From the NCBI RefSeq assembly GCF_002694385.1, contig NZ_NZMB01000005.1, forward strand, positions 254,435-301,877: a stretch of 47,443 bases of DNA, in the 5' to 3' direction. This stretch comes from Sneathiella sp. GTDB taxonomy: Bacteria > Pseudomonadota > Alphaproteobacteria > Sneathiellales > Sneathiellaceae. The position numbers and the translations under genes were made by a program. The notes under the pieces were generated by a model. It did not search any database and was not told the DNA's origin. It saw only the letters and a program-made list of their open reading frames with translations. The number at the start of each line of letters is the position of its first letter. The stretch's first letter is position 1. This document shows, piece after piece, positions 20,598-41,451 of this stretch.

Positions 20598-20684
20598 TGC
20601 CCCGCTTCCGGGCCGAGGATAGGGTTGGGTCAGGGCGACGTTCCGTTCAAGGCAGTTCCATATTTGCAGGAAAGCAACAGAGAT

Positions 20685-24403: not shown

Positions 24404-24405
24404 TC

Positions 24406-25630: not shown

Positions 25631-25654
25631 ATACCCGACCCGAAATGCGGGTAT
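25631..25654. other. Hairpin in the leader of the APE operon
   Basis: ATACCCG (25631-25637) and CGGGTAT (25648-25654) pair across a ten-base loop that itself holds a competing CCCG, so two mutually exclusive stems can form. It lies 29 bases before the first lipoprotein gene. No U-run follows, so it is not a standard terminator; it could be an operator or a leader RNA element. Confidence 0.3.
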
Positions 25655-25683
25655 CGCTTGAACGCCTTTGGAGGGGCAACATA

Positions 25684-26091
25684 ATGAAGAAGTTTTTCTA
25701 TCTGGCGATGGTGGTGACCATGGCCCTTTTTGTCAGCGGTTGTTTCGGCCGCGTACAGCCGGTTTATAACGTCGATGCCGGTCATGTGCCGATGAAGCTG
25801 CAGGAAGGTTCCGTTGACCGCATTGCCATGGCCATCCGCACGGCGGCCATCAATCGGGGCTGGAGCATCGAAGAGGCGGGGGCTGGCCTGTTCAAGGCGA
25901 CGCTGCACAACCGCAGCCATGTTGCCGTGGTCAATATCCGCTATTCCAAGACGACCTATTCGATCGAATATGTCAGCAGCCAGGATCTGCTGTATGAAAA
26001 TGGCAATATCCATCGCAGCTATAACAAATGGGTCCGGACGCTGGAGAATGACATCAACAAGGAACTGAATAAGGCGTCGCTCACTGCCTGA
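25684..26091 (+). CDS. Small lipoprotein at the head of the APE cluster
   Basis: A 135-residue predicted lipoprotein. The signal peptide ends in the lipobox V-S-G-C with the acylated Cys20. The mature part has a mixed alpha/beta look with the conserved-looking I-R-T-A-A-I-N-R-G-W-S, Y-S-I-E-Y and the C-terminal H-R-S-Y-N-K-W-V-R-T-L segment. GGAGGGG lies seven bases before the ATG at 25684, which fixes the start. It lies seven bases before the chain-length factor gene and so probably belongs to the pigment operon, perhaps as an envelope acceptor or chaperone for the polyene. Function is unknown; similar small lipoproteins also occur outside APE clusters. Confidence 0.75.
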   Translation: MKKFFYLAMVVTMALFVSGCFGRVQPVYNVDAGHVPMKLQEGSVDRIAMAIRTAAINRGWSIEEAGAGLFKATLHNRSHVAVVNIRYSKTTYSIEYVSSQDLLYENGNIHRSYNKWVRTLENDINKELNKASLTA

Positions 26092-26098: not shown

Positions 26099-26842
26099 AT
26101 GGGTGAGGTTGCATTGTCCTTCTCGCTTCAGCGTTGGTCCGCTTGGGCGCCGGGTCTGTATGACCCGGATGCCTGGCGGCAATGGGCGGAAGGCGAGGCG
26201 GGGTTGCCGACAGGGCAGGGGGAAATGCCGGATGTACGGGATTTGCCCGCTGGCCTCCGCCGTCGCCTGTCACGGCTTGGCAAGCTGGCGCTGAGGACGG
26301 CGATGGATATCGATCCTGGCCTTTCTCCGCGGCTTGTCTTCTCGTCGCGCAACGGCAATGTGACCCAGATGCTGGGGCTGCTGGAAAGCCTGGCGCGGGA
26401 GGAGCCCTTGTCTCCCACCGGCTTCGGCATGTCGGTGCATAATTCGCTGGCCGGAATGCTGTCCATCATCAGCAAGAACAGGGAAACCCATACGGCCATT
26501 GCCGCCGGTGGGGAGAGTTTCTGCCTCGGGCTGATCGAGGCACTCACAACCTTGCAGGAAGATCCGTCCTCTCCGGTGCTGTTCTTGCATGCGGATGAAC
26601 CGCTGCCCGAATTTTATGAGCCATATGGTGATGCGGAGGTGCCGCTTGCCGCGCTGGCGTTGCTGATCGCCCCGGCCGATGAGGCGGCAGGGGAAATGTA
26701 TCGCTTCGGTTTTACAGGCGCCGTCGGACGGGAGCATGGCGGTGATCCGCTCACCAGTTTTCTGCGCTTCATGCTGCGAGGGCAGGGGGAATGGCGCTGG
26801 TCGGGGGAGCAGGGAGACTGGTGGTGCCGCCGTCATGTTTGA
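26099..26842 (+). CDS. apeC: APE chain-length factor (beta-ketoacyl synthase-like, ApeC)
   Basis: A 247-residue incomplete ketosynthase homologue (Ketoacyl-synt_2 type). It retains the first half of the thiolase fold around S-S-R-N-G-N-V-T-Q and the G-M-S-V-H-N-S-L-A-G segment, but has no reactive Cys and no catalytic His motifs. Proteins of this kind act as chain-length factor: they dimerise with the active ketosynthase ApeO and shape the tunnel that sets polyene length. It is the first biosynthetic gene and overlaps the acyltransferase gene by eight bases. Confidence 0.85.
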   Translation: MGEVALSFSLQRWSAWAPGLYDPDAWRQWAEGEAGLPTGQGEMPDVRDLPAGLRRRLSRLGKLALRTAMDIDPGLSPRLVFSSRNGNVTQMLGLLESLAREEPLSPTGFGMSVHNSLAGMLSIISKNRETHTAIAAGGESFCLGLIEALTTLQEDPSSPVLFLHADEPLPEFYEPYGDAEVPLAALALLIAPADEAAGEMYRFGFTGAVGREHGGDPLTSFLRFMLRGQGEWRWSGEQGDWWCRRHV

Positions 26843-27608
26843 GAAAATAAACTATGTCTGGCGACTGATCGGAACGGGTATTGCCTTTGCCTGTTTCAGT
26901 TTGGGCGGCGCACTCATGACGTTGTTCGTCTTTCCGCCCATCGCGCTGCTCACGAAAGATGACGAGACGCGCATCCGCCGGGTGCGCCGCGTGATCTATC
27001 ATGCTTTCCGTTTCTTCGTTTTCATGCTGCGGATCGGCGGTATTATCGATTCCCGTTTTCATGGTGCGGAAAAGCTGTCGCAATTGCGCGGCGCGCTCAT
27101 CGTTGCCAATCATCCCGCGCTGCTGGATACGGTTTTCCTGATGTCGCGCATGCCCGATGTGCAATGCATCGTCAAGCATGAGCTGTGGGACAACCCCTAT
27201 CTTGGCGGGGTGATGCGCGCCGCCGGATACATCCGTAATGACGGCGATGCGATGAGCATGATGACGCAATGCGAAAAAGCCCTGGCCAAAGGGCAGAATA
27301 TCCTGATTTTCCCGGAAGGGACGCGGTCCGTCCCCGGGCAGCCGATCCGGTTTCAGCGCGGTTTCGCCAACATAGCAACCCATTTCGAAACGCCGATCCA
27401 GCTTGTCACCATCCTCTGCGATCCGCCGACGCTGGCGAAGGGAAGCCCGTGGTATGCAATCCCTCCCCGTCAGTCGCGTTTTGATATATCATTCGATGAA
27501 CTTCTGGACATGTCCGGCTACTTGAGGCATGAACCGAGGTCAATTAAAGTGCGACGGCTCACCCGGGAGTTGGAGCAATATTATATTGGGAAGCTTTGCC
27601 ATGAGTGA
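26835..27608 (+). CDS. apeD: Lysophospholipid acyltransferase-like protein (ApeD)
   Basis: A 257-residue membrane-associated acyltransferase of the PlsC fold. One or two N-terminal spans (about residues 11-40) precede the H-x4-D motif N-H-P-A-L-L-D (His93, Asp98) and the F-P-E-G-T-R-S motif at 159-165 that binds the glycerol phosphate. In APE clusters this enzyme is thought to attach the polyene or an acyl chain to a membrane glycerolipid. The frame is open from 26679, but only the ATG at 26835 gives the membrane N-terminus, and it overlaps apeC by just eight bases. It overlaps apeE by eight bases as well. Confidence 0.88.
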   Translation: MFEKINYVWRLIGTGIAFACFSLGGALMTLFVFPPIALLTKDDETRIRRVRRVIYHAFRFFVFMLRIGGIIDSRFHGAEKLSQLRGALIVANHPALLDTVFLMSRMPDVQCIVKHELWDNPYLGGVMRAAGYIRNDGDAMSMMTQCEKALAKGQNILIFPEGTRSVPGQPIRFQRGFANIATHFETPIQLVTILCDPPTLAKGSPWYAIPPRQSRFDISFDELLDMSGYLRHEPRSIKVRRLTRELEQYYIGKLCHE

Positions 27609-27870
27609 TTTTGAACTCGAAATCAAAAAGCTGGTGATCGATACTCTCAATCTGGAGGATATCACGCCGGAGGAGATCGACAGCGAGGAACGTCTGTTTG
27701 TGGACGGGCTTGGCCTCGATTCCATTGATGCGCTGGAACTGGGCGTCGCCATTCAGAAGACCTATGGCATCAAGATCAGCGCCAAGAATGATGATTTGAA
27801 AGATCATTTCTCCTCCATTCGCAATCTTGCAAACTTCATCACCGCCGAGCGGAAGGAGATGGGCGCATGA
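27601..27870 (+). CDS. apeE: Acyl carrier protein 1 (ApeE)
   Basis: An 89-residue carrier protein. The phosphopantetheine attachment site is Ser41 in L-G-L-D-S-I-D-A-L-E-L. The rest is acidic and helical, as in type II PKS/FAS carriers. Two carriers are found side by side in APE systems, one for the starter and growing chain and one with a separate loading or transfer role. The next ACP overlaps its stop by four bases. Expression is very likely coupled to the acyltransferase gene. Confidence 0.93.
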   Translation: MSDFELEIKKLVIDTLNLEDITPEEIDSEERLFVDGLGLDSIDALELGVAIQKTYGIKISAKNDDLKDHFSSIRNLANFITAERKEMGA

Positions 27871-28112
27871 CCCGCGAAGACATCTATAACAAGCTCAGCG
27901 AGTATCTGGTGGAAATGTTTGAGGTGCCGCCGGAGCAGATTTCTCCCGACGCGCAGCTTTATGAGGATCTTGACCTTGATTCTATCGACGCGGTGGATCT
28001 GGTGGTCAAATTGCAGGATCTGACCGGCAAGAAAATCCCGCCGGAGGAGTTTCGCACCGTGCGTTCCGTAGGTGACGTGGTGGACCGCGTTCATGCCCTT
28101 CTGGCGGCGTAA
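27867..28112 (+). CDS. apeF: Acyl carrier protein 2 (ApeF)
   Basis: An 81-residue acyl carrier protein with attachment Ser39 in L-D-L-D-S-I-D-A-V-D-L. It differs from the first carrier over most of its length, so it is not a recent duplicate; this supports distinct roles in chain extension. It needs a phosphopantetheinyl transferase encoded outside the window. The next gene starts 20 bases before this stop. Confidence 0.93.
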   Translation: MTREDIYNKLSEYLVEMFEVPPEQISPDAQLYEDLDLDSIDAVDLVVKLQDLTGKKIPPEEFRTVRSVGDVVDRVHALLAA

Positions 28113-28674
28113 AGTCCGGCCGCTGGATCTGCTGCTTGTCCTGATCAGCCTGGCCTACCCGTTTGTCGTCTATTTCGGATTGATGAAATTTTCCCCGCTC
28201 GTCGTGGGGCTGGCGCTGGTTGCCTTTCTGCTGCTGCGCATCGCCCTGCAACGGGGCCGCCGCATCGGCGGCAGGTCTGAAGCCGGGCTGTATCTGTTTA
28301 TCCTTGGTGCCGTTCTGCTGCTTCTGCTGCTTGATGAATTGCTGGCGGTCAAAGCCTATCCGGTCCTGATCAGCCTGTCCTTCGCGGCACTGTTCGGATT
28401 TTCCCTTATTTCGCCACCGCCAATTATCGAGCGGATCGCCCGCGCGATGGAAGGCGAGCTGGATGATCACGCCATCCGCTATACCCGCCGGGTGACGGAG
28501 GCCTGGGTGGTTTTTTTCCTGTTGAATGCAGCCGTCTCCCTCTGGACGGCGTTTTATGCCAGTCTGGAAATATGGACCCTCTATAACGGATTTGTATCCT
28601 ACCTTCTTATCGGTCTGATGTTCGGCGGTGAATATCTGCTGCGCCAGTATGTGAAGCGCCGGAAAGCGGGGTGA
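28093..28674 (+). CDS. apeG: APE-cluster inner-membrane protein, COG4648-like (ApeG)
   Basis: A 193-residue polytopic protein with about five or six hydrophobic helices separated by short Arg-rich loops (R-R-K-V-R-P near the start, R-Q-Y-V-K-R-R-K near the end). It has no catalytic motif. Homologues travel with the AMP ligase and ACP genes in APE and related clusters and are presumed to anchor the synthesis machinery to the membrane. ATG 28093 is favoured over a start at 28072, since it yields a short basic N-terminus; the overlap with apeF is 20 bases. Confidence 0.8.
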   Translation: MPFWRRKVRPLDLLLVLISLAYPFVVYFGLMKFSPLVVGLALVAFLLLRIALQRGRRIGGRSEAGLYLFILGAVLLLLLLDELLAVKAYPVLISLSFAALFGFSLISPPPIIERIARAMEGELDDHAIRYTRRVTEAWVVFFLLNAAVSLWTAFYASLEIWTLYNGFVSYLLIGLMFGGEYLLRQYVKRRKAG

Positions 28675-28677: not shown

Positions 28678-30045
28678 ATGTTTGTTCCCGCCTCAAAACT
28701 GCTGACCTCGGACCGGGATGGAAAGACGCCTGTCGCCTGTCTGGCGGCGGGGCATGTCAAAAGTTTCGCTGATCTTCATGCCGAAACGGCGGACCTTGCC
28801 GCGCGGATCGTGGCACGCGGGCGGCCCCGTCTGGTTCTAGCCTGCCACAGCGGCTATGCCTTTGTCTGCGGCATGCTGGCGGCTTTTCAGGCCGGTTGTC
28901 ATGTCATTGTGCCGCCGAATGTGTTGCCCGGGATGCTGGATCTGTTCGTCAGCGGGGATAGCCCGCTTCTTTCCGATATTGTGGAACAGGACGGGCCGCA
29001 GCAGATGGCGATTGACGGGCGCAGGGGGCGGGAATTTGCTTTCCGCCCGCTCGATCCGGCCGATTGCCGGTTTGATTTCTATACCTCCGGGTCCACGGGG
29101 CTGCCGAAACAGGTCCCCAAAAGTTTGAAGCAGATTGAGGATGAACTGGTTGTCCTGCATGGCTGCTTTGGTGATCGGCTTGCAGGGTCGGCGACCCTCG
29201 GTACGGTCAGCCATCAGCATATTTTCGGCCTTTATTTCAAATGCCTGCTGCCGCTTTGTGAGGGACGGCCGTTTTTTCCGGGCATCTTCGAGATATGGGA
29301 GGAGTTGCTGGCCGCCGCGCCGCGCGCCTGTTCTCTGGTGACCAGCCCGGCGCATCTGACGCGCATCCCGCCTCTCGATCCATTGAGAGGGGAGGACCGC
29401 ATGCCGGTCATTTTCGCGGCGGGCGGGCCGCTGCCCTTTGCGGCGGCGGCGCAGGCGGCGCGGCTGTTTGGGCCGGTACCGACGGAAATTTTCGGCAGCA
29501 CCGAGACCGGCGCCATCGCCTGTCGTCAGCAGATGACAGAGGCAACGCCGTTCCGTCCCCTGCCGGGGGCCGAAACCCGGACCGATGCGGAAGGGCTGCT
29601 GCATGTCCGCGCCGCCTATACGGCAAAAGGCGAGTGGGAAGCGATGAACGATCTCGTCACGCGCTTTGACGATGGGGGATTCCTGCTCACGGGGCGGGCC
29701 AGCCAGTTCGTCAAGATTGAGGGGAAGCGTATTTCCCTGTTGGAAATCGAACAGCATCTCACCAATTCCTCGCTTGTTCGCGATGCGGCCGTTTTCATCC
29801 TTCCGGGTGTGCGCGATACCCTGGTGGCGGTGGTTGAACCGACTACGGCGGGATGGGAGATGCACGCGACACTGGGGGCGTTCCGGCTCGGTCGGGAGTT
29901 GCGCAAGGCGCTATCCGGACATCTGGAAAATGCCGCCCTGCCGCGCCGCTGGCGCTTCGTTGCGCAGTTGCCGCTGAACGCGCAGGGCAAGCGTCAGCAG
30001 ACGGTTCTCAATGAACTGTTTGCAGAGGAAGGGCGGGATAATTAG
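28678..30045 (+). CDS. apeH: APE aryl acid:ACP ligase (AMP-forming, ApeH)
   Basis: A 455-residue adenylating enzyme that activates an aryl acid (4-hydroxybenzoate-like in studied systems) and loads it on the ACP. The A3 motif Y-T-S-G-S-T-G-L-P-K is at 135-144, F-G-S-T-E-T-G-A-I at about 272-280, and the A10 lysine is Lys438 in N-A-Q-G-K-R-Q-Q. It is shorter than usual acyl-CoA ligases because the N-terminal region is compact, as typical for APE ligases. It lies three bases after apeG. No gene that makes the aryl acid is seen in the window. Confidence 0.9.
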   Translation: MFVPASKLLTSDRDGKTPVACLAAGHVKSFADLHAETADLAARIVARGRPRLVLACHSGYAFVCGMLAAFQAGCHVIVPPNVLPGMLDLFVSGDSPLLSDIVEQDGPQQMAIDGRRGREFAFRPLDPADCRFDFYTSGSTGLPKQVPKSLKQIEDELVVLHGCFGDRLAGSATLGTVSHQHIFGLYFKCLLPLCEGRPFFPGIFEIWEELLAAAPRACSLVTSPAHLTRIPPLDPLRGEDRMPVIFAAGGPLPFAAAAQAARLFGPVPTEIFGSTETGAIACRQQMTEATPFRPLPGAETRTDAEGLLHVRAAYTAKGEWEAMNDLVTRFDDGGFLLTGRASQFVKIEGKRISLLEIEQHLTNSSLVRDAAVFILPGVRDTLVAVVEPTTAGWEMHATLGAFRLGRELRKALSGHLENAALPRRWRFVAQLPLNAQGKRQQTVLNELFAEEGRDN

Positions 30046-30057: not shown

Positions 30058-30438
30058 ATGCAGAGCACCTCAGAAATAACCTGGTCGGCCAGCCCGACGG
30101 AACCCCGCCTCACAATCGTGCGGCAGGATGGGGATGTGATCGAACTTGCCTTCATGGTGACGGAGGATCTGTTCCAGCTTCAGGGGCACTTCCCGGGGGA
30201 GCCGGTGTTGCCTGGCGTTGCGCAAGTTGACTGGGCGGTGAAATTCGCCCGCCGCTATCTCGGGATGACGGGGGATATCGCCCGCCTCGGCCAGCTTAAA
30301 TTCTCGCAATTGATCGTCGGAGGCAGCCATATCGGACTCAATCTTGATTGGCAGCGGGAGGCGGGACGGCTTCACTTCTCCTACCACAAGGGGGAGGAAG
30401 TCTGCTCTTCCGGCTTTTTCGAGCTGACATCCCCATGA
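30058..30438 (+). CDS. apeI: Hot-dog 3-hydroxyacyl-ACP dehydratase (ApeI)
   Basis: A 126-residue FabZ/FabA-like hot-dog dehydratase. The catalytic His44 lies in the motif G-H-F-P-G-E-P-V-L-P-G-V-A-Q, which is the standard FabZ active-site stretch. In APE synthesis two dehydratases (ApeI and ApeP) remove water from the 3-hydroxyacyl-ACP to leave each double bond, and they may act as a heterodimer. The glycosyl/acyltransferase gene overlaps its stop by four bases. Confidence 0.88.
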   Translation: MQSTSEITWSASPTEPRLTIVRQDGDVIELAFMVTEDLFQLQGHFPGEPVLPGVAQVDWAVKFARRYLGMTGDIARLGQLKFSQLIVGGSHIGLNLDWQREAGRLHFSYHKGEEVCSSGFFELTSP

Positions 30439-32141
30439 GTTTCTCCCTTGCCGCCATTGTCCCGAGCTATAACCACTATCGCCATATCGAGACGGTAATC
30501 GCGGCGCTTCGCAGACAGAATCTGCGGGTTTTCATTATCGACGATGGCAGTGCGGAACCGGCAAAGTCCGCGCTTGCCGCGCTGCATGATCCGGAGAGGG
30601 GCATCACCGTCCATCGTCAGGAGACAAATGGCGGCAAGGGCCAGGCGGTGATGGCGGGCTTCCGCCTTGCCGCGTCGGAAGGTTTCAGCCATGCGTTGCA
30701 GATTGATGCGGACGGGCAGCATGACCTGCATGCCCTGCCGGCGATGATCGAGATTGCGAAGATCCATCCGCACTCCCTGATCAGCGGCGAGCCGGTTTAC
30801 GATGACACCATTCCGCCCGCGCGGAAATTCGCCCGCTGGATCACCCATGTCTGGGTCTGGATCGAGACCCTGTCGATGGAGATCACGGACAGCATGTGCG
30901 GCTATCGCATCTACCCTCTCGCGCCAACCCTCGGGCTGATGGAGAGCGAGCGCATCGGCCATTATATGGATTTCGACACGGAGATCATGGTGCGGCTTCA
31001 CTGGCGGGGCGTCAAGATGCGCATGCTGCCGGTGTCGGTCACCTACCCGCCGGATAACAGCTCGAACTTCCGGATTGGCATGGATAACTGGCTGATCACC
31101 AAAATGCATACCCGTCTTGTCTTCGGGATGTTGTGCCGCTTGCCGATGCTGATACGGCGACGGCGCCGGCGCCGGATGGACGCGGACACGCAGCATTGGG
31201 GGCGGATTGACGAGCGGGGCATGGCATTCGGCCTTAACTTCCTTCTGGCAGCTTACCGGTTGCTGGGGCGTCGTGTCTGCTGGGCCCTGATGCAGCCGGT
31301 GCTGCTCTATTTCTTCCTGACGGGCACTGCTTCGCGCCGCGCCTCCCGCGATTACTGGCGACGAATCTTCTCGATGAAGGCAGAGGCGGGGGAGGTCAGC
31401 CTGTGGCAACTCTGGCGGCATTACCGGTCATTCGGGGCGATGGCGCTGGACCGGCTGGCCGCCTGGCTTGGCCATATCCGGCTTGCGGATCTGGACCGGG
31501 ACGATCTTCTCCGCCTTGATGGCCTTGGCACAGAGGGGCAGGGCATCCTCGTCGTTACCTCGCATCTTGGCAATGTCGATGTGCTGCGGGCGGTTGGCGC
31601 CGCGCGGGGCATTGATAATGTCACCGTCTTTGCCCATACCCGCAATGCCGCCCGCTTCACCGAAATTCTTAACCGCGCCAATCCGGCGGCGGCGGTCAAT
31701 GTCCAGGAGGTGGAGGATATCGGCCCGGCCACGCTGATCGAGCTTCAGGAAAAGCTCCAGGCTGGCAACTGGATTGTGATTGCCGGGGACCGCATCCCGC
31801 TTGGCGAATCGAAACGTATCCGGGTGATGGATTTTCTGGGCGCGCCCGCGCCTTTTTCCGAAGGGGCCTGGCTGATTGCCTCCCTGCTTGGCTGTCCCGT
31901 CTATTCGCTGCATTGCCTGCGCGAGGACGGGAAATTCCGCATCCTGTTTGAAAAGATCACGGACAGGGTTGTGCGCGGCCGTCCGCCCCGCGACGGCCTT
32001 GCCGCGCCGATGGCGGCCTATGTGCAGCAGCTTGAGCAGGGGTGTCTTCGCTATCCCGAGCAATGGTATAATTTTTATGATTTCTGGGCGCTCCCCGGGC
32101 AACGCCTGCGGCCGGAAGAAAAGAATAAGGAAACCCCATGA
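30435..32141 (+). CDS. apeJ: Fused glycosyltransferase family 2 / LpxL-like acyltransferase (ApeJ)
   Basis: A 568-residue two-domain protein. Residues 1-235 form a GT-A glycosyltransferase with I-V-P-S-Y-N, I-I-D-D-G-S and the metal motif D-A-D-G-Q-H-D. A seven-arginine run (241-247) joins it to a C-terminal lysophospholipid/LpxL-type acyltransferase, with S-H-L-G-N-V-D as the H-x4-D site and G-D-R-I-P later. It may build a sugar head group and acylate it with or around the aryl polyene, anchoring the pigment in the outer membrane. An open frame reaches 30348, but ATG 30435 overlaps the dehydratase stop by four bases and begins the GT fold properly. Confidence 0.88.
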   Translation: MSFSLAAIVPSYNHYRHIETVIAALRRQNLRVFIIDDGSAEPAKSALAALHDPERGITVHRQETNGGKGQAVMAGFRLAASEGFSHALQIDADGQHDLHALPAMIEIAKIHPHSLISGEPVYDDTIPPARKFARWITHVWVWIETLSMEITDSMCGYRIYPLAPTLGLMESERIGHYMDFDTEIMVRLHWRGVKMRMLPVSVTYPPDNSSNFRIGMDNWLITKMHTRLVFGMLCRLPMLIRRRRRRRMDADTQHWGRIDERGMAFGLNFLLAAYRLLGRRVCWALMQPVLLYFFLTGTASRRASRDYWRRIFSMKAEAGEVSLWQLWRHYRSFGAMALDRLAAWLGHIRLADLDRDDLLRLDGLGTEGQGILVVTSHLGNVDVLRAVGAARGIDNVTVFAHTRNAARFTEILNRANPAAAVNVQEVEDIGPATLIELQEKLQAGNWIVIAGDRIPLGESKRIRVMDFLGAPAPFSEGAWLIASLLGCPVYSLHCLREDGKFRILFEKITDRVVRGRPPRDGLAAPMAAYVQQLEQGCLRYPEQWYNFYDFWALPGQRLRPEEKNKETP

Positions 32142-32545
32142 TTGCGGCTGAAGTAACCGTCAAATGCCAGTTTTATGACCTCGACCCCATGGGCATTGTC
32201 TGGCATGGCAATTACCCGCGGTTTTTTGAACTGGCGCGCTGCGCCCTGCTGGACAAGCTGGATTATAACTATCAGCAGATGAGCGACAGCGGCTACGCCT
32301 GGCCGATTGTCGATATGCGTATCAAATATATCCGCTCCATCCGCTTTGCCGAGGAAGTGCGGGTGCGGGCGATCCTTGCTGAATATGAAAACCGCCTCAA
32401 GATCAACTATGAAATCAACCATAGGGACACGGGCGAGAAAATCACGCGCGGCTATACCATTCAGGTTGCAGTTGATCAGCGGACGGAGGAAATGCTATTT
32501 CAATCACCACCCGTCCTTTATGATAAAGTGGGATCCCTTTTGTGA
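32138..32545 (+). CDS. apeK: Acyl-CoA/ACP thioesterase, YbgC/4HBT family (ApeK)
   Basis: A 135-residue hot-dog thioesterase. The active-site pattern D-L-D-P-M-G-I-V-W-H-G-N-Y-P-R-F-F-E matches the D-x-D-x-x-G-V-V-Y-H-x-N-Y-x-x-F-x-E signature of YbgC. It may release the polyene chain or edit wrongly loaded carriers. It overlaps both neighbours by four bases (ATGA before, GTGA after). Confidence 0.88.
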   Translation: MIAAEVTVKCQFYDLDPMGIVWHGNYPRFFELARCALLDKLDYNYQQMSDSGYAWPIVDMRIKYIRSIRFAEEVRVRAILAEYENRLKINYEINHRDTGEKITRGYTIQVAVDQRTEEMLFQSPPVLYDKVGSLL

Positions 32546-33153
32546 AACGTCTTTTTTGTCTGCTGCTGCTGTTCCTTGTGAGCGGCCCCGCCGGTCTGGC
32601 CCCTGCTGCGCCGCAAACCCTCAAGGAAGGGGAGGCGTTGATGGGCCGTTTCGAACAGGCGCGGTATCTGCGGGGGTTTGAAAAACCGATCCTGTCAGAA
32701 GGTGTTTTTTTTCTGATGCCGAAATCGTCCCTGATCTGGCAGACGGAAACCCCCTTCTTCAGCCGCATGGTGATTGATGACGAGGGGCTCAGCCAGTCCG
32801 TCGGCGGCGCCGAGGTGACCCGCCTCGGTTTCAAGCAGTTTCCCGGTTTCAAATTGCTGCGCGAGACATTCGAGAACAGTCTCGGCGGTAACTGGCAATC
32901 GCTCGAGGAGCTGGCGGGGGCGAAGCTGATACCGGCGGCCGATGGCAAATTCTCCTTGCGCTTCACGCCCCAGGCAAGCGGGCTGAACCTGCCTTTTGCC
33001 TATCTCAATTTCTCCATCGGCGACTTTCTCGAAATGGTGGAAATTGTCAAAAGCAATGGCGATCGGGATGTGATCAGCTTCTCTGAGCAGCGCATCGCCC
33101 CGGTTGAAGAGGTGAAGGCGGCGGCGCAGAGCGCCCGGAGTGCGCAACCGTGA
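32542..33153 (+). CDS. apeL: LolA-like periplasmic lipoprotein carrier (ApeL)
   Basis: A 203-residue LolA-fold protein with a signal peptide cut after about residue 23 (hydrophobic L-L-L-L-F-L-V core, then P-A-A-P-Q). The body resembles outer-membrane lipoprotein carriers: G-R-F-E-Q-A-R-Y-L-R-G-F, P-S-K-S-S-L-I-W-Q-T-E-T-P-F. It likely carries the lipid-linked polyene across the periplasm, in tandem with the MMPL pump. Start is GTG, overlapping the thioesterase stop by four bases. Most hydrophobic-pocket residues cannot be judged by eye. Confidence 0.85.
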   Translation: MKRLFCLLLLFLVSGPAGLAPAAPQTLKEGEALMGRFEQARYLRGFEKPILSEGVFFLMPKSSLIWQTETPFFSRMVIDDEGLSQSVGGAEVTRLGFKQFPGFKLLRETFENSLGGNWQSLEELAGAKLIPAADGKFSLRFTPQASGLNLPFAYLNFSIGDFLEMVEIVKSNGDRDVISFSEQRIAPVEEVKAAAQSARSAQP

Positions 33154-35474
33154 GCCGGGTCGGCCTCTGGGTCTATCTCGGGCTGTTGATTGCCGCCGTT
33201 ATTCTCATCGGCTGGCGGCTGAAGGATGGCCTGCCGCTCGATACCAATGTCGTCGCCATGCTGCCGCAGTCGGAAAGCGCGGAGTGGGTTGTCCGGGCTG
33301 AGGCGGCGGAACGGGCGCAGGGGACGGATCAGCTGATTGTGCTGGTGGGCAATGCTAATTTTGAAACGGCGCGCGCCGCGGCGCAGATGCTTGGCAAGAC
33401 GCTGGTGGATGGCGGCGTTCTCAAATCGCTGCAAAATCATACGGGACAGTCCACATTTCGGCATATGAGCGAGACGCTTTTTCCGCATCGCACCGGCCTG
33501 CTGTCGGAAAGTGATCGCCGGTTGCTGATGGCCGGTCAGGGGCAGACGCTGATTGACCGGGCGATGGTGCAAATCGTCTCGCCGCTGTCGCTTGCCGATG
33601 CGGAAGTCATTCGCCGCGATCCGTTTCTGTTGCTTCCCAACTATCTGGCGGCGGGGGCGGAAAACAGTTCGAAACTGCAAAGCCGCGCCAATGTGCTGGC
33701 CGTTGAGGAAAAAGGCGTCTGGTATGTGCTGGTGCGGGGGCGGCTCGCGGGAAATCCGTTCGACAAGGGGTTTCAGACGCGCGCTCTCAAGTTGTTTGAT
33801 GAGACGACGCAGCAGCTTGTGAAAGCGCATGGCGATCTGAAAATCCTCAAAACCGGTGCGGTTTTTTACGGCGAACATGCCTATCGTCAGGCGGAGGATG
33901 AGGCCGGCTTTATCGGCGTTATTTCGCTTGTCGGCATCATTCTCCTGAATTTTCTCGTGTTCCGGAGTTTCCAGCCTCTGGCCCTCATCCTGGTGGCAAT
34001 TGCGTCGGGCATAACCGGCGGGCTGGCGGTGACGCTGCTGTTTTTCGGCTCCCTGCAAATGCTGGCGCTGGTCTTTGGCGTGGGGTTGATCGGTATTTCG
34101 GTTGACTATGCCTTCCATTATTTTTGCGAAAAATTCGGCAGCGGCGCCCCCACGGCGGCGTTGCGGGCGCGGGCCGTGCGGTCCGGCCTCACGCTCGGCC
34201 TTGTCAGTTCCGTTCTCGGCTTCATCACCCTGGCGCTCACGCCGTTTCCGGGATTGCAGCAGATTGCGCTGTTCTCGGCCTCCGGGCTGACGATGGCCTA
34301 TCTCTGCGTTCTGTATCTCTTCCCCTATCTGGATCGGGCGACGCCCTTCAGCCATGGCGAGAAACTGCTTGCGGCTTCCATGAAGCTGCATGATTTCTGG
34401 TGGCGGAAAGAGCTGCGCGGCGGACGGATTTTACTGATCGGGATGCTTGTCCTCGTCGGACTGTTCGGCGCCACGCGCATCACGGCGGATGATGATGTCC
34501 GGCGGTTGCAATCGCTGCCGCAGGAGTTGCAGGCCGAGGAACAGGCGATCCGTTATCTTGCCGGGGTGGACAACCAGACATACCGCTTTTTCGTGCGCGG
34601 TTCGGGGGCGGAAGAAGTCTTGCAGGCGGAAGAGGCGCTGGCGCTGGATCTGGAAGCCCTGCGGGCGAGTGGCGCGATTGGCAACTATCGTATGATTTCC
34701 CAGTTTATTCCGTCGAAAGCGCGGCAGTCTGAGAACCGGGCGCTGGTTGACAGGGCCCTGATGCCGCAACTTGAACAGCATATGGCCGCCCTCGGCCTGG
34801 CGGGAGAGCAACCCTATCCCCGCGTCGATCAACCCCTGACCCTCGATCAGTTTACCGGCGAGGGCATGCCCGAGCTGATCTCGCAGCTCCGGGTTTACGG
34901 GACGCCCGGCATTGTCGTGCATGCGGTGATGCTGTCCGGCGTCAAGGACCGGGAGGCGCTGGCCCGGCTGGCGGACAAATCCGGTCATATCGCGCTGGTC
35001 AGCCAGGCGGACAGCCTCAGCAAGACATTCGGTGCCTATCGGGTGCGGGCCCTGATCATGCTCGGCATTGCCTATGGGGTCGTGCTGGTGTTCCTGTCGC
35101 TCCGTTATGGGGTTATGGGGGCGCTGAAAGTGATGCTGCCGTCCATGAGCGCGGTGGCGCTGGCGCCCTGCCTGCTCGCCCTGATGGGGGAGCCTTTCAC
35201 CTTTTTCAACGCCATGTCGCTGATGCTGATTTTTGCCATCGGCCTCGATTATGCGCTGTTCAATCGCGAATCCGCAGGCCACCGGCAACGCCGCGCCATG
35301 TTGGCCAATGGTCTGTCGGCCCTGTCCACCCTGCTGGCCTTCGGGCTGCTGGCGCTGAGCGACACCTTCGCCATCCATGCCTTTGGCCTCACCATTCTGG
35401 TTGGGATCACCCTTGCCTACCTGCTCGCGCCGATTGCGGCGGATACGAAAAACCCCATGACGGAGCCGCTCTGA
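33150..35474 (+). CDS. apeM: MMPL/RND-type exporter (ApeM)
   Basis: A 774-residue membrane exporter. The layout is one N-terminal span, a large periplasmic loop, five spans (G-V-G-L-I-G-I-S-V-D-Y-A-F-H with the charged Asp), then the same layout again ending L-I-F-A-I-G-L-D-Y-A-L-F-N. The two internal Asp residues in helix 4-like positions fit proton-driven RND/MMPL transport. In APE clusters it moves the pigment lipid out of the inner membrane. Start GTG overlaps the LolA-like gene by four bases; the halogenase-like gene follows after one base. Confidence 0.9.
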   Translation: MSRVGLWVYLGLLIAAVILIGWRLKDGLPLDTNVVAMLPQSESAEWVVRAEAAERAQGTDQLIVLVGNANFETARAAAQMLGKTLVDGGVLKSLQNHTGQSTFRHMSETLFPHRTGLLSESDRRLLMAGQGQTLIDRAMVQIVSPLSLADAEVIRRDPFLLLPNYLAAGAENSSKLQSRANVLAVEEKGVWYVLVRGRLAGNPFDKGFQTRALKLFDETTQQLVKAHGDLKILKTGAVFYGEHAYRQAEDEAGFIGVISLVGIILLNFLVFRSFQPLALILVAIASGITGGLAVTLLFFGSLQMLALVFGVGLIGISVDYAFHYFCEKFGSGAPTAALRARAVRSGLTLGLVSSVLGFITLALTPFPGLQQIALFSASGLTMAYLCVLYLFPYLDRATPFSHGEKLLAASMKLHDFWWRKELRGGRILLIGMLVLVGLFGATRITADDDVRRLQSLPQELQAEEQAIRYLAGVDNQTYRFFVRGSGAEEVLQAEEALALDLEALRASGAIGNYRMISQFIPSKARQSENRALVDRALMPQLEQHMAALGLAGEQPYPRVDQPLTLDQFTGEGMPELISQLRVYGTPGIVVHAVMLSGVKDREALARLADKSGHIALVSQADSLSKTFGAYRVRALIMLGIAYGVVLVFLSLRYGVMGALKVMLPSMSAVALAPCLLALMGEPFTFFNAMSLMLIFAIGLDYALFNRESAGHRQRRAMLANGLSALSTLLAFGLLALSDTFAIHAFGLTILVGITLAYLLAPIAADTKNPMTEPL

Positions 35475-35475: not shown

Positions 35476-36708
35476 ATGTCCATTGCCACAGAAGATTGTG
35501 ATGTTGTGATCATCGGCGCGGGGCCTGCGGGCTCGCTGGCGGCGACCTTGCTGATGCAGCAGGGGGTGAAGGTCTTGATGCTGGAGAAGGGCAATTTCCC
35601 GCGCTTTGTGATTGGCGAGAGCCTGCTGCCGCAATCCATGGTTTTCATGGAAAAGGCGGGATTGCTGCCGCGGCTGGCGGCGGCGGGGTTCCAGTTCAAG
35701 AACGGCGCCGATTTTGCGGATGACCGGCGCTTCACCTCCATTGATTTTTCGCAGAAATTTTCCGCCGGTCCCGCAACAACCTATCAGGTGCAGCGCGAGC
35801 GGTTCGATCAGCTTCTGGCGGAGGCGGCGCGCGATGCAGGCGCGGATCTTCGTTTCGGGCAGGAGGTGACCGGCGTTGAAATGACGGATCACGGCGTCAG
35901 GCTGTCCGGCGCGAATGCGGACGGGCCATTCGAGATATCGGCGCGCTTCGTGGTGGACGCCAGCGGATATGGCCGGGCCCTGCCGCGCCTCATGGATCTG
36001 GATGCGCCGTCCGACTTTCCGGTGCGCCATGCGCTGTTCACTCATATCGATGACCGGCTGGAGGGGCGCAATTTCGACCGCAACAAGATCCTGATCACGG
36101 TGCATCCCGCCTGCAAGGATATCTGGTTCTGGCTTATCCCTTTTCCGAACGGGCGCGCCTCGCTCGGCGTTGTGGTGCCACCGGCGGAACTGGCCAAATA
36201 CCCCGGCACCAATGAAGAAAAGCTGTGGAAGATCATTTCTGAAACACGGGATCTTCAGGCGCTGCTGGAAGGCGCGGTCGCCGTGCGTCCGGTCGCGGAG
36301 ATGTCCGGCTATTCGACAAAGGTAAAGCAGCTTGCCGGGCCGCGGTTTGCGCTGCTGGGCAATGCCGGAGAATTTCTCGATCCGGTCTTCTCCTCCGGCG
36401 TCACCGTCGCCTTCAAATCCGCCGATTTACTGGTTGATCCGCTGCTGCGACAGCTTGCCGGGGAAACCGTGGACTGGGACGCCGATTTCTCCCGCCCGCT
36501 GAAAGTCGGTGTGGATTGTTTCCGGATCTTTGTCGAGGCATGGTATCGCGGCGATTTGCAGGAAATCATCTTCAACCCGCCCGCAGATGACAATCCGATC
36601 AAGCAGATGATTGTGTCTATCCTTGCGGGTTATGCATGGGATGAAAAAAATCCCTTTGTCTCGCAAGGGCGGAAATATCTTGATATGGTGGCCCTGCAAT
36701 GCGCGTAA
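35476..36708 (+). CDS. Flavin-dependent halogenase-like oxidoreductase in the APE cluster
   Basis: A 410-residue FAD enzyme. It has the dinucleotide motif G-A-G-P-A-G at 14-19, the group motif F-P-R-F-V-I-G-E-S-L-L-P at 41-52, and Lys75 in G-F-Q-F-K-N-G-A-D-F at the place of the catalytic lysine of phenolic halogenases. The halogenase hallmark WxWxIP is present as W-F-W-L-I-P at 217-222, and L-D-P-V-F-S-S-G-V follows near the C-terminus. This suggests it can make hypohalous acid at the flavin and halogenate the aryl head, as in xanthomonadin-type pigments. The broad family also contains reductases and monooxygenases that keep some motifs, so activity is inferred. It sits between the exporter and the DUF3261 lipoprotein, overlapping the latter by ten bases. 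Confidence 0.8.
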   Translation: MSIATEDCDVVIIGAGPAGSLAATLLMQQGVKVLMLEKGNFPRFVIGESLLPQSMVFMEKAGLLPRLAAAGFQFKNGADFADDRRFTSIDFSQKFSAGPATTYQVQRERFDQLLAEAARDAGADLRFGQEVTGVEMTDHGVRLSGANADGPFEISARFVVDASGYGRALPRLMDLDAPSDFPVRHALFTHIDDRLEGRNFDRNKILITVHPACKDIWFWLIPFPNGRASLGVVVPPAELAKYPGTNEEKLWKIISETRDLQALLEGAVAVRPVAEMSGYSTKVKQLAGPRFALLGNAGEFLDPVFSSGVTVAFKSADLLVDPLLRQLAGETVDWDADFSRPLKVGVDCFRIFVEAWYRGDLQEIIFNPPADDNPIKQMIVSILAGYAWDEKNPFVSQGRKYLDMVALQCA

Positions 36709-37202
36709 AATTTATCTTCATTCTGGCCTTCCTCACTCTTGGCGCCTGCGCAAGCACGCCGGAGGAGGGGATTGAATTCGCCGCCTGGCAATTGCCGGAG
36801 GGGCAGCCGCGCGAGGTGGTCCAGATGCTGAATGGCCGGTATGGAGAGCAGCAGTTCGGATTGCAGGTGCGCCTCAGCCTGAAGGAGGAGCGGATGCAGA
36901 TCGCCGCGCTCGATGCGCTGGGGCGGCGGGCATTTGATATTCTCTGGACCGGGAAGGGGGTCGAGGCGACGCGGGCGGACTGGATATCGGAAGAACTCAA
37001 CGCGGTGGATATCCTGAAAGTGATTGTTGCGGCTTACTGGCCCGCGGATGATCCCATGCAGGCGCGGGTGGCGGACCGGGCCGAAACGCTCGACATTACC
37101 TATCAGAGTCTGCGGGCAAACGCCTGGAACGAACAGGTCCATATTCGCGATACCGAATTGCAGTATGAAATGACCATCATTTCCTACGAACTGGCGCCAT
37201 GA
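36699..37202 (+). CDS. apeN: DUF3261 lipoprotein (ApeN-like)
   Basis: A 167-residue predicted lipoprotein with lipobox L-G-A-C (Cys17). The mature domain matches the DUF3261 pattern: Q-F-G-L-Q-V-R-L-S-L, I-A-A-L-D-A-L-G-R-R, and I-L-K-V-I-V-A-A-Y-W-P. Members are found almost only in APE-type clusters and are thought to act in pigment transfer at the envelope. The symbol follows gene order and is uncertain. The stop overlaps apeO by four bases. Confidence 0.75.
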   Translation: MRVKFIFILAFLTLGACASTPEEGIEFAAWQLPEGQPREVVQMLNGRYGEQQFGLQVRLSLKEERMQIAALDALGRRAFDILWTGKGVEATRADWISEELNAVDILKVIVAAYWPADDPMQARVADRAETLDITYQSLRANAWNEQVHIRDTELQYEMTIISYELAP

Positions 37203-38374
37203 GGGAGGCCGTGTATCTCAACAGTCTCGGCATTATCAATGCGCTGGGCCAAGGCAGGGCGGCGGTGGCGGCGCGGCTTTTTGCCGGTGATGCGGGCGGG
37301 ATGAAACCGATGGCGGGGTTTCTGGACGGGCGCACAGTCATGGCCGGGGCCGTCGACGCGTCGCTGCCGGAGGTGCCGCCGGAACTCCTTCGCTTTGATA
37401 GTCGCAACAACCGTCTGCTGCTTGCCGCCGTGCAGGAGATAGAAGACGATATCCGCGCCGCCATTGAGCGGTACGGCGCGGATCGCGTGGCGGTCATTCT
37501 CGGCACCAGCACGTCCGGCATCAGCGATAATGAAGCCGGGGTGGCGGAGAAGGTCCGGACGGGGCGGTTTCCGGAGGGGTTTGACTATGACCGGCAGGAC
37601 AATGCCTCCCTTGCCCTGTTTTTAAGGCGTTACTTCGGCCTGTCGGGCCTCGCCATGACCATTTCCACGGCCTGCACCTCCAGCGCCAAGACCCTCGCCT
37701 CGGCGCGGCGGCTGATGGCGAGCGGTCTCTGCGATGCGGCCATTGTCGGCGGGGCCGATACGCTCTGCCGTCTCACCATGAACGGCTTTGCCTCGCTTGA
37801 GCTGGTTTCCGATGCGCGCTGTAATCCTTTCAGCAAGAACCGCGGCGGTATCAATATCGGCGAGGGAGCGGCCGTCTTTCTGATGAGCCGGGAAGAGAGA
37901 GGCCCGCGCGTTGCCGGGATTGGCGAAACATCCGACGCGCATCATATGAGCACGCCTGATCCGGACGGGACAGGCGCCCATGCCGCCATGGCCCGCGCGC
38001 TGGATGACAGCGGGCTTAACGCCGCCGACATCGGCTATCTCAACCTGCATGGCACGGCGACGGAACTCAATGACAGCATGGAGGCGAAAGCCGTCCATCA
38101 ATTGCTCGGGGCCGTGCCCAGCAGCTCCACCAAGCCGCTGACCGGCCATACGCTCGGCGCGGCGGGCAGCACGGAGCTGGCCTTTCTCTGTCTCGCCCTT
38201 GAGAGCGGGGAGGGGCTGTTGCCGCCGCATGTCTGGGATGGGGTGGTGGATCCTGATCTGCCGCCGGTCCATCTGGTGAAGGCGGGGGAGCGGCGGGAGA
38301 ATGCCCGCGCGATGATGAGCAATTCCTTCGCCTTTGGCGGCAGCAATATCAGCGTCATCCTGACGAAGGACTAG
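37199..38374 (+). CDS. apeO: Beta-ketoacyl-ACP synthase (ApeO)
   Basis: A 391-residue elongating ketosynthase. The nucleophile is Cys159 in S-T-A-C-T-S-S-A, with His284 in L-H-G-T-A-T-E and His317 in K-P-L-T-G-H-T-L-G-A; all three catalytic residues are intact. It should pair with the Cys-less ApeC as a ketosynthase/chain-length-factor heterodimer and carry out the repeated malonyl condensations of the polyene. It overlaps the lipoprotein gene by four bases and is followed after three bases by the second dehydratase. Confidence 0.92.
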   Translation: MREAVYLNSLGIINALGQGRAAVAARLFAGDAGGMKPMAGFLDGRTVMAGAVDASLPEVPPELLRFDSRNNRLLLAAVQEIEDDIRAAIERYGADRVAVILGTSTSGISDNEAGVAEKVRTGRFPEGFDYDRQDNASLALFLRRYFGLSGLAMTISTACTSSAKTLASARRLMASGLCDAAIVGGADTLCRLTMNGFASLELVSDARCNPFSKNRGGINIGEGAAVFLMSREERGPRVAGIGETSDAHHMSTPDPDGTGAHAAMARALDDSGLNAADIGYLNLHGTATELNDSMEAKAVHQLLGAVPSSSTKPLTGHTLGAAGSTELAFLCLALESGEGLLPPHVWDGVVDPDLPPVHLVKAGERRENARAMMSNSFAFGGSNISVILTKD

Positions 38375-38377: not shown

Positions 38378-38797
38378 ATGGAACCCTGCCCCTATGATGT
38401 CACGGAAATCCTCTATCACGCCCCGCCGATGATCCTGATCGACCGGGTGCTCAGCTATGATGCGGAGACGGTGACGTCGATTGTCGATATCACGGAGCGG
38501 ACGCCGTTTCTGGCGGCGGACGCGGTTCCCGCCTATGTCGGCATTGAATATATGGCCCAGTCCATCGCCGCCTATAGCGGCATCATGGCGCGCAATGCGG
38601 GCGGAGAGGTGAAGATCGGCTATCTTGTCAGCACGCGCAATATGAAACTCGGCTGCCCGTCCTTCGCGATTGGCGAGCGGCTGAAGATCACCGTCAAGCT
38701 GGTCTATAACGAAGCGCCGATGGCCGTCTTCGATGGCCGCATCGAACGGGATGAAAAGCTTGTCGCCGAAGCGCGGCTTAATGTATACCAACCCTGA
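38378..38797 (+). CDS. apeP: Hot-dog dehydratase (ApeP)
   Basis: A 139-residue hot-dog protein with H-A-P-P-M-I-L-I-D-R-V at residues 14-24 (His14) and the helix P-A-Y-V-G-I-E-Y-M-A-Q-S (Glu57, Gln61), typical for ApeP. It is the second dehydratase of the pathway and probably works with ApeI in a heterodimer. Both are much shorter than fused FabA types. The ketoreductase gene starts 18 bases after its stop. Confidence 0.87.
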   Translation: MEPCPYDVTEILYHAPPMILIDRVLSYDAETVTSIVDITERTPFLAADAVPAYVGIEYMAQSIAAYSGIMARNAGGEVKIGYLVSTRNMKLGCPSFAIGERLKITVKLVYNEAPMAVFDGRIERDEKLVAEARLNVYQP

Positions 38798-38815: not shown

Positions 38816-39541
38816 ATGCGAAAAAGAATGTTGGTCACAGGGGCGAGCGGCGGTATCGGCCGGGCAATTGCCCTCCGGCTTGCGAAGGATGGCTTCGAGA
38901 TTGTCGCCCATTGCGGCCGTAACCATGCGGCGGGGATGGAGACGGTCAGCCTGATCGAGGCGGCGGGCGGCGCGGCGCGGCTTGTCCAGTTCGATATTGC
39001 CGATCGCGATCAGTGCCGCGATATCCTGGAGGCGGAGACGGAGGATTTCGGCGCCTTCTACGGCGTTGTGCTGAACGCCGGAATCACCCGCGATACCGCC
39101 TTTCCCGCCATGATGGATGATGAATGGGACGCGGTGATCCACACCAATCTCGATGGCTTCTACAATGTGCTGAAGCCGCTGACCCTGCCCATGGTGTCGG
39201 CGCGGCGGGGCGGACGGATTGTCGTCATCTCGTCGGTCTCCGGGGTGATGGGCAATCGCGGGCAGGTCAATTACAGCGCATCGAAATCCGGGCTGATCGG
39301 CGCGGCGAAGGCGCTGGCGCTGGAGCTGGCGAAGCGCAAGATCACCGTCAACTGTGTTGCGCCGGGCCTGATAGAGACGGCGATGAGCGAGGAACTCCCG
39401 CTCGATGAAATCATGAAGATGATCCCGTTGCGCCGCCTTGGCGAGGCGGAGGAGGTGGCGGCGACCGTTGCCTTCCTCTGTTCGGACGGGGCCGGGTATA
39501 TCACGCGGCAGGTCATCTCGGTAAACGGAGGCATGGCGTAA
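38816..39541 (+). CDS. apeQ: 3-oxoacyl-ACP reductase, FabG-like (ApeQ)
   Basis: A 241-residue SDR reductase that uses NADPH to reduce the 3-keto group after each condensation. Cofactor motif T-G-A-S-G-G-I-G lies at residues 8-15; the catalytic set is Ser140, Tyr153 and Lys157 (Y-S-A-S-K). The N-N-A-G position reads L-N-A-G. The ATG of apeR overlaps its stop by one base (TAATG). Confidence 0.92.
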   Translation: MRKRMLVTGASGGIGRAIALRLAKDGFEIVAHCGRNHAAGMETVSLIEAAGGAARLVQFDIADRDQCRDILEAETEDFGAFYGVVLNAGITRDTAFPAMMDDEWDAVIHTNLDGFYNVLKPLTLPMVSARRGGRIVVISSVSGVMGNRGQVNYSASKSGLIGAAKALALELAKRKITVNCVAPGLIETAMSEELPLDEIMKMIPLRRLGEAEEVAATVAFLCSDGAGYITRQVISVNGGMA

Positions 39542-40773
39542 TGAAGCGGGTTGTGGTGACGGGGATGGGCGGGGTGACCTCGCTCGGTGAAGACTGGGCG
39601 GCGATCTCGGCCAATATGCGGGCCGGAAAGACCGGTATCCGCCGCATGGAAAGCTGGGATTTCTATGACGGCCTCAACACCCGCCTCGCTGGCCCGGTGG
39701 AGGGCTTCGATGTTGATGGACGCTATCCACGCAAGGCGCTGCGCAGCATGGGTCCGGTCTCGAAAATGGCCGTTTACGCAACGGAAAAGGCGCTCACCAT
39801 GGCCGGCCTGCTGGATGATCCGGTGCTGAAGTCGGGCCGGATGGGGGTTGCCTATGGGTCTTCCTTCGGCAGCACGAAGCCGGTTGTCGCCTTCACCGAC
39901 CTGATGCGCGATGGCCATTCCCGCGATCTCACCGCCACCAGCTATGTGCGGATGATGAGCCATACGACGGCCGTTAATATCGGCGTGTTCTACGGCCTGT
40001 CCGGGCGCGTGATCCCGACATCGAGCGCCTGCACTTCCGGCAGTCAGGGCATCGGCTATGCCTATGAGGCGATCAAATACGGGTTGCAGGATCTGATGGT
40101 CGCCGGCGGGGCGGAGGAACTCTGCCCGACCATGGCGGCGGTGTTTGACACCCTCTATGCGACCAGCACGAAAAATGACACGCCGCATCTTTCCCCGCGG
40201 CCGTTTGACAAGGACCGCGACGGGCTGGTGATCGGCGAAGGGGCGGCGACGCTGGTGCTGGAATCCTATGATCATGCGGTGGCGCGGGGCGCGCCGATCC
40301 TGGCCGAGATTGTCGGCTACGCCACCAATTCCGATGGCCGCCATATCACCAACCCGACGCAGGCGACGATGGAGGTGGCCATGCAATCCGCCCTCGACAA
40401 TGCCGGGCTCACCGCGGCCGATATTGATTTTATCAGTGGCCACGGCACGGCGACGGAGCAGGGCGATGTGGCCGAATCCCACGCGACGCGAAAAATCCTC
40501 GGACCCGATATCCCCTTTCATTCCCTGAAAAGCTATTTCGGGCATAGCCTTGGCGCCTGCGGCTCGATCGAGGCCTGGCTCGGCATCGAGATGATGCGGG
40601 AGGGCTGGTTCGCCCCGACGGCCAATCTCGACAATGTGGATGCGGCCTGCGCCGAACTCGACTATCTGATGGGCGCGGGGCGCGAGATCGGCGTCCGGCA
40701 TCTGATGAGCAACAATTTCGCGTTCGGCGGCATCAACAGTTCGCTGATCTTCCGCAACGCGGCGGAATTATAA
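39541..40773 (+). CDS. apeR: Beta-ketoacyl-ACP synthase (ApeR)
   Basis: A 410-residue FabF-type ketosynthase. Catalytic Cys164 lies in T-S-S-A-C-T-S-G, His301 in G-H-G-T-A-T-E and His335 in Y-F-G-H-S-L-G-A. It is probably a homodimer that does the first condensation on the aryl starter, separate from the ApeO/ApeC heterodimer. It is the last gene of the cluster; its stop overlaps the convergent PilZ gene by six bases. Confidence 0.92.
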   Translation: MKRVVVTGMGGVTSLGEDWAAISANMRAGKTGIRRMESWDFYDGLNTRLAGPVEGFDVDGRYPRKALRSMGPVSKMAVYATEKALTMAGLLDDPVLKSGRMGVAYGSSFGSTKPVVAFTDLMRDGHSRDLTATSYVRMMSHTTAVNIGVFYGLSGRVIPTSSACTSGSQGIGYAYEAIKYGLQDLMVAGGAEELCPTMAAVFDTLYATSTKNDTPHLSPRPFDKDRDGLVIGEGAATLVLESYDHAVARGAPILAEIVGYATNSDGRHITNPTQATMEVAMQSALDNAGLTAADIDFISGHGTATEQGDVAESHATRKILGPDIPFHSLKSYFGHSLGACGSIEAWLGIEMMREGWFAPTANLDNVDAACAELDYLMGAGREIGVRHLMSNNFAFGGINSSLIFRNAAEL

Positions 40774-41154: not shown

Positions 41155-41451
41155 CCTGCTCTATGCATAACATTCCTCATGGGTGAGCGGGCACTCTAGC
41201 AAAAAGAGATTAATTCTGTATAAAGAACTGACGGCAATTTTTACGAAAATCGCTTCATTCCGGTTGCATAAAGCGCGGCCTGACGCGCAGGGGCAGGTCT
41301 GGCGAAATTGTCGGGCGCGATGTCATTCATCCGGATTTTATGCGGATAAAGGACATGTGAACTGGACTCCGGCGGAACGGGGCATTACTTAACGTTCAAT
41401 ATAAGATATTTGATGTTTCGAGTTATATTATATGACGTATGTCCGGGGTGC
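41155..41451. other. Divergent intergenic region between the PilZ gene and tamA
   Basis: A 297-base non-coding gap that must hold the promoters of the minus-strand PilZ gene and the plus-strand tamA. The stretch 41385-41445 is A/T-rich (TTAACG, AATATAAGAT, TATATTATATG), the best place for the tamA promoter, but no convincing -35/-10 pair was found. No hairpin, repeat or small gene stands out. Confidence 0.5.

Follow-up and report, generated by a model that had tools for sequence, protein, structure and literature searches.

A halogenase-like flavoprotein gene in the aryl polyene operon of a Sneathiella sp. and its relatives in other aryl polyene clusters

The stretch of 47,443 nucleotides that was analysed (hereafter the window) carries, between 25.6 and 40.8 kb, a run of genes that matches the E. 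coli aryl polyene (APE) proteins ApeA and ApeC to ApeR in the same order (17 of the 18 proteins), and inside this run lies a gene for a flavoprotein, P0001, which the first-pass annotation had indeed placed in an aryl polyene operon. The labels of the run rest on the proteins of E. coli CFT073 and of Pseudoalteromonas as the sole queries, and most of them are supported by Pfam.

25645..26091, + strand: candidate ApeA-like lipoprotein (E. coli ApeA match of 65 bits; without a Pfam family)
26099..26842, + strand: ApeC-like chain length factor, PF13723 (Pfam, E. coli match)
26679..27608, + strand: ApeD-like acyltransferase, true start probably downstream of 26679 (Pfam, E. coli match)
27529..27870, + strand: ApeE-like acyl carrier protein (Pfam, E. 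coli match)
27867..28112, + strand: ApeF-like second acyl carrier protein (E. coli match)
28072..28674, + strand: ApeG-like protein (E. coli match)
28678..30045, + strand: ApeH-like ligase, AMP-binding (Pfam, E. coli match)
30058..30438, + strand: ApeI-like dehydratase (E. coli match)
30438..32141, + strand: ApeJ-like glycosyltransferase/acyltransferase (Pfam, E. coli match)
32138..32545, + strand: ApeK-like thioesterase (Pfam, E. coli match)
32542..33153, + strand: ApeL-like LolA protein (E. coli match; flexirubin LolA2 weak, below cut-off)
33150..35474, + strand: ApeM-like MMPL transporter (Pfam, E. coli match)
35476..36708, + strand: P0001, halogenase-like FAD flavoprotein of 410 residues (ORF, Pfam, PDB search, motifs, model)
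36699..37202, + strand: ApeN-like DUF3261 protein (Pfam; E. coli ApeN match weak, 22 bits)
37199..38374, + strand: ApeO-like ketosynthase (Pfam, NCBIfam, E. coli match)
38378..38797, + strand: ApeP-like dehydratase, PF22817 (Pfam, E. coli match)
38816..39541, + strand: ApeQ-like ketoreductase (Pfam, NCBIfam, E. coli match)
39541..40773, + strand: ApeR-like ketosynthase (NF006587 above cut-off; Pfam, E. coli match)

The P0001 gene sits between ApeM and ApeN, starting 2 bases past the MMPL gene and overlapping the DUF3261 gene by 10 bases at its end. ApeC/O, R, P, Q and H, the acyl carrier proteins and the L/M/N genes, by which an ape-type cluster is recognised, are all found in this one run. 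No match to ApeB or to an ammonia-lyase was found in the window, and ApeB had none in the whole genome at 1e-30. The run is immediately preceded by genes for an HlyD-type membrane fusion protein and two ABC-2 type transporters (20547-25539, + strand) and closely followed by one for an Omp85 superfamily protein that has a POTRA match (41410-43374, + strand), with a PilZ protein gene on the opposite strand between the APE run and the Omp85 gene. Farther away (551-1903, + strand), a frame of 450 residues with two TetR_N and two TetR_C_24 matches corresponds to two TetR-type regulators fused in tandem.

The reading frame of P0001 is open from an ATG start in the ORF check of the window, and a single internal stop interrupts the reverse strand when it is read in that register. 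The frame is not a chance one, for 14 of the genus's 23 other genomes contain a match (50-74% identity). Four features, with coordinates obtained by arithmetic from the ORF start, stand out in the protein.

35515..35532, + strand: GAGPAG dinucleotide-binding motif, residues 14-19 (motif scan)
35698..35700, + strand: codon of Lys75, which aligns with the lysine of PltA, ChlB4, Mpy16, CndH, FasV and 3NIX
36124..36141, + strand: WFWLIP (WxWxIP), residues 217-222 (motif scan)
36373..36399, + strand: FLDPVFSSG (Fx.Px.Sx.G), residues 300-308 (motif scan)

The first-pass annotation had called the enzyme halogenase-like on account of WxWxIP at 217-222 and of a lysine at position 75, the catalytic place of phenolic halogenases, and both signatures are confirmed, as WFWLIP stands there and Lys75, in the context FQFKNGADF, aligns with a lysine in six of six solved chains. 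The lysine of PltA-type halogenases that aligns with Lys75 is the catalytic one. GAGPAG at 14 and FLDPVFSSG at 300 come in addition to these signatures, and the latter also fits the tunnel motif FX[DE]PX[EFL]; the halogenase motifs are those given in excerpts of PMC8407142 and PMC12645471. P0001 is a real, intact flavin enzyme gene with halogenase sequence signatures.

In 397 other genomes of the phylum we obtained 46 strong matches (at least 285 bits) and 15 weaker ones that were the best of their genome (125-198 bits). The APE chain length factor (PF13723) lies within 20 kb in 45 of the 46 strong and in 10 of the 15 weaker matches, as counted without the second G434 match, the window's own genome and the sub-cut-off chain-length-factor matches of G183 and G361. 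Because 45 of 46 strong matches are so placed, an APE is the probable substrate of P0001. A strong chain length factor, scoring at least 130 bits, is present in 68 genomes; 44 of them also have the strong flavoprotein, and 11 of the 24 that lack it belong to a single family (f81). Within the genus, 14 members scanned for the chain length factor include seven with the flavoprotein and seven with the factor, six having both, and the two that have just one of them are fragmented assemblies. Among 34 surroundings of strong matches, four of them from the genus, the recognised gene closest to the flavoprotein is ApeM in 29 cases and ApeB in three, and two differ; these loci were labelled with a mixed query set that includes the window's own proteins, and the labels of the window were rechecked without these.

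At least 536 relatives exist, many of them in APE clusters, and this halogenase-like lineage is thus ordinary and large. In the best 80 of them, labelled with the same mixed query set, 41 lie between ApeM and ApeN or ApeO, and an ApeB-type gene is in the stretch of 24 and is the recognised preceding gene in 23, the latter mostly from Vibrio, Photobacterium, Grimontia and Aliivibrio. The genus of Aliivibrio sp. S4MY1 has strong matches in 12 of 14 genomes. Hosts among the matches listed include Vibrio, Shewanella, Cupriavidus, Stutzerimonas, Achromobacter and Rodentibacter, and those in the plasmid collection include Pseudoalteromonas, Acinetobacter and Aureispira. The suggested link to a marine-like host is weak, as strong matches are also found in Cupriavidus, Stutzerimonas, Achromobacter, Rodentibacter and Acinetobacter. 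We also considered a strict rule by which a cluster either methylates or halogenates, and rejected it: ApeB-type genes, counted by eye, occur in seven of the 46 strong genomes (in one of these, G081, on another contig) versus eight of the 24 genomes with a strong chain length factor and no flavoprotein. That Vibrio-type clusters carry the flavoprotein, often next to an ApeB-type methyltransferase, is one of the main doubts about a halogenase function, and the published APE of A. fischeri is said to be methylated and not halogenated.

Several loci depart from the usual arrangement. In Photobacterium sp. SKA34 and Moritella dasanensis (L118 and L120) no APE gene was recognised in the 10 kb flanks of a strong flavoprotein, and none was recognised around a halogenase-like gene with the three motifs on a plasmid of Variovorax sp. 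PDNC026 (L189; H27). In one genome (G259, locus L057) the flavoprotein gene is split over two frames (127 and 346 residues), perhaps through a frameshift or decay. Two APE-like clusters (L077 and L091, in G116 and G285) have two different halogenase-like genes each, one kind of which reads FIDPIFSFG in place of FLDPVFSSG, with a MipA-like gene next to them.

In the phylogenetic tree the strong matches, 3NIX and an Aureispira sequence form one group of 44 rows, hereafter clade A, with 100/100 support, while ChlB4, Mpy16, PltA, CndH and FasV form a separate group (96/89) and the weaker matches ('clade B' rows) fall into three further small groups. The tree was built without the two L057 fragments, L082 (a frame of 695 residues) and L095 (a QhpG with an ambiguous frame), and it warns of long branches; the order of some forks between its groups is open. 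Out of six solved chains in it, clade A holds 3NIX only and no characterised halogenase, which is a main doubt on the halogenase reading.

The weaker kind directly adjoins a XanB2-type chorismatase in four genomes (G088, G209, G419 and G038), although not in all, since in G268 the chorismatase gene is on another contig and in G434 it lies 13 kb from the second match. None of the 46 strong genomes has a XanB2-type match within 20 kb on the same contig, three having one elsewhere, and the window's genome gave no match to this chorismatase (PF21168). Judging from these sequences, APE clusters appear to hold two kinds of halogenase-like gene, those of clade A and those associated with XanB2, a distinction that we did not find stated in the excerpted literature on APE halogenases. 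The expected pigment had been compared to xanthomonadin; the comparison stands as a chemical analogy and fails as one of descent, as P0001 groups with 3NIX and the XanB2-adjacent genes are placed elsewhere, and orthology to the xanthomonadin genes is rejected as far as it is testable. A Roseomonas plasmid carries a further cluster, with MipA, an antiporter, a ketosynthase, a chain length factor and a gene annotated as tryptophan 7-halogenase.

At the level of family scores, the top Pfam match of P0001 is Trp_halogenase (82.4 bits against a cut-off of 21), and the best NCBIfam match, the CmlS equivalog NF033113, stays below its cut-off (139 bits against 900). A PDB search with the single sequence gave 3NIX at 312 bits followed by ChlB4 (144) and PltA (142), and with a profile of 26 sequences it gave 3NIX at 473 bits, 13 halogenase sequences at 217 to 91 (12 so named, and CmlS, named an alkylhalidase) and then a reductase at 65. 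The AlphaFold2 model of P0001 (mean pLDDT 91.2, pTM 0.91) retrieved 3NIX first in Foldseek (TM 0.94), and VIA-align superposed it on the same structure with Z 54.7 and an rmsd of 1.6 over 400 aligned residues. ChlB4 (Z 47.1), PltA (46.6), Mpy16 (46.1), Bmp2 (45.1-45.9) and FasV (45.1) came next, and RadH (40.6), CndH (40.5), the best hydroxylase HspB (37.5) and the halogenase CmlS (37.3) lower down, in a ranking that does not exclude families missing from the list. The halogenase-like character claimed at first is therefore borne out in motifs, fold and lysine alike.

The name of the top structural match, 'flavoprotein/dehydrogenase', together with a score of 118 bits to the geranylgeranyl reductase family TIGR02032 (cut-off 158.8), could indicate that P0001 performs a flavin reductase or dehydrogenase-type step on the polyene with no oxygen chemistry. 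We regard this as very unlikely, given that the name is a structural-genomics label, that the solved reductase comes far lower in the profile search, and that Lys75, I221 and P222 are invariant in the clade A rows aligned.

The invariance of these residues also bears on another possible role of P0001, that of a monooxygenase whose hydroxylation or other oxygenation would fall on the aryl head or the polyene, in the way that QhpG, of a related fold, hydroxylates tryptophan. Class A hydroxylases do share the fold, with p-hydroxybenzoate hydroxylase reaching a Z of up to 37.2 besides the value of HspB, and the QhpG hydroxylase family NF049967 is the second-best NCBIfam match of P0001, yet its 120 bits are under the cut-off of 240. 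A control alignment of 64 rows shows Lys75, W219, I221 and P222 unchanged in all 42 other rows of clade A, in all 8 'clade B' rows and in all six solved chains (3NIX and five halogenases), whereas Lys75, I221 and P222 occur in none of the seven hydroxylase-side rows. The four places (75/219/221/222) read Q, W, A and R in the three QhpG rows that pass the family cut-off, and A/G/C, Y, A/T and D/A in the four QhpG sub-cut-off rows, provisionally labelled 'Lod-like'; WxWxIP was found neither in four QhpG loci nor in four sub-cut-off loci. D302, P303 and G308 do not discriminate because they are common to all groups, and S306 is likewise present in the four rows below the QhpG cut-off. The minus-strand loci L012 and L015 are out of the alignments, and the later ones (A1-A3) are without most minus-strand loci of that list. 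Of the best 80 of the at least 536 relatives, all named, every one retains the lysine, WxWxIP and F..P..S.G; only the lysine count is independent, as the scan that found them used the other two stretches as patterns. WxWxIP has further been suggested to prevent monooxygenation (PMC8407142, in excerpt), and the head-group hydroxyl usually comes from the precursor (excerpt of PMC8253772). Taken with these points, an oxygenating role is quite unlikely.

That a halogenase-like gene is found in an APE cluster is already known. According to excerpts of PMC3691225, two Xanthomonas species, whose pigments carry 0-2 Br, have a halogenase gene in their xanthomonadin clusters, Lysobacter enzymogenes lacks it and has a pigment without the bromine pattern, and some other genera also have halogenase genes alongside the ketosynthase pair. 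A figure legend in PMC3838355 (seen in part) places a 'putative reductase/halogenase', XanB1, just before XanB2, plus a separate halogenase gene, and an excerpt of PMC8776678 links a 'probable halogenase' to APE genes in Acetobacteraceae. In the aryl polyene and halogenase literature covered, mostly titles and the openings of abstracts, no clade A enzyme was found to have been assayed, which is no proof of absence, and the parts consulted on chlorinated flexirubins and on 3NIX or Cytophaga hutchinsonii held nothing usable on this protein.

The APE cluster of Azoarcus BH72 has a 'halogenase' gene, and the pigment, C41H52O4, is non-brominated and without halogen (PMC3949708, in excerpt). Judged by this case, the presence of a halogenase-like gene does not guarantee that the pigment is halogenated, which we count as a main doubt; P0001 could halogenate through HOX while the mature pigment is normally unhalogenated, the product being condition-dependent, a minor species or made from another substrate. 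The range from no bromine upwards in Xanthomonas and the frequency of strong matches in bacteria not known as marine are compatible with such a situation, but the linkage of the strong matches to the chain length factor points to an APE substrate, and we consider it unlikely. The same paper, in the part available, has arcA adjoining arcB, and as the Azoarcus 'halogenase' thus adjoins a XanB2-type gene it is probably of another lineage than P0001.

With slightly better than even confidence, we assign P0001 to the flavin-dependent halogenases of the PltA/ChlB4/Mpy16 type, as an accessory APE tailoring enzyme that would act on the phenolic head. In the scheme that we infer as regards activity, reaction steps, halide, substrate, timing and halogenated pigment, free FADH2 supplied by a flavin reductase encoded elsewhere (a two-component system) would bind P0001, oxygen would then give a C4a-hydroperoxide on the flavin, and attack by halide would yield HOX, which would travel past the WxWxIP/FxxPxxSxG tunnel to Lys75. 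The lysine would deliver the halogen to an electron-rich ring, most likely the 4-hydroxyphenyl head of the pigment, carrier-bound or already extended, and possibly bound to an acyl carrier protein as with PltA-like enzymes. Halogenation would occur at the positions ortho to the head OH, which should be free because the genome gave no ApeB match. In E. coli and X. doucetiae 4-hydroxybenzoate is loaded on the acyl carrier protein, and APE head groups are tailored by methylation or halogenation (PMC8253772, in excerpt). A chlorinated or brominated pigment in the window's host, as was first anticipated, is plausible.

More tentatively, and as a possibility that we would not yet lean on, clade A as a whole may be a dedicated APE halogenase lineage, apart from the XanB2-associated genes and present in about two thirds (44/68) of the genomes with a strong chain length factor and in Bacteroidota. 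Much of the commonest bacterial pigment family might then carry unnoticed halogen at those ring positions where E. coli ApeB places methyl groups; APE clusters are the most abundant family of bacterial biosynthetic clusters (excerpt of PMC8253772). Should halogenation prove real, the structures given for many APEs would be incomplete; should it not, three halogenase motifs would be insufficient to call an enzyme a halogenase. With a conserved lineage, a solved, functionally unassigned structure (3NIX) and mostly one slot in the APE cluster, pigment chemistry with and without the gene is readily comparable.

Compared with known systems, the E. coli CFT073 cluster is like the window in its matched proteins and identical in order around the slot of P0001 (thioesterase-LolA-MMPL-DUF3261-KS-DH-KR-KS), where a counterpart of P0001 is absent, and it has the ApeB methyltransferase and no flavoprotein, the reverse of the window. 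As E. coli keeps this order while lacking the gene, P0001 is accessory and the backbone can be built in its absence. 3NIX, from Cytophaga hutchinsonii (Bacteroidota), is 41% identical over 400 aligned residues and shares the lineage, the motifs and the lysine of P0001; its Aureispira relative lies 7 kb from a gene for an MMPL/acyltransferase/methyltransferase fusion. PltA, ChlB4 and Mpy16, which act on carrier-bound rings, share with P0001 the whole-chain fold (Z 46-47), the lysine, WxWxIP and DPxFSSGV, but differ in their 27-28% identity, separate tree group and other pathways. Finally, the halogenase-like genes in or near XanB2-type (xanthomonadin/arcuflavin-type) APE-like clusters have the fold family and motifs of P0001 at 31-37% identity and belong to other tree groups, to which Azoarcus ArcA and the Xanthomonas genes are tied by published gene order alone.
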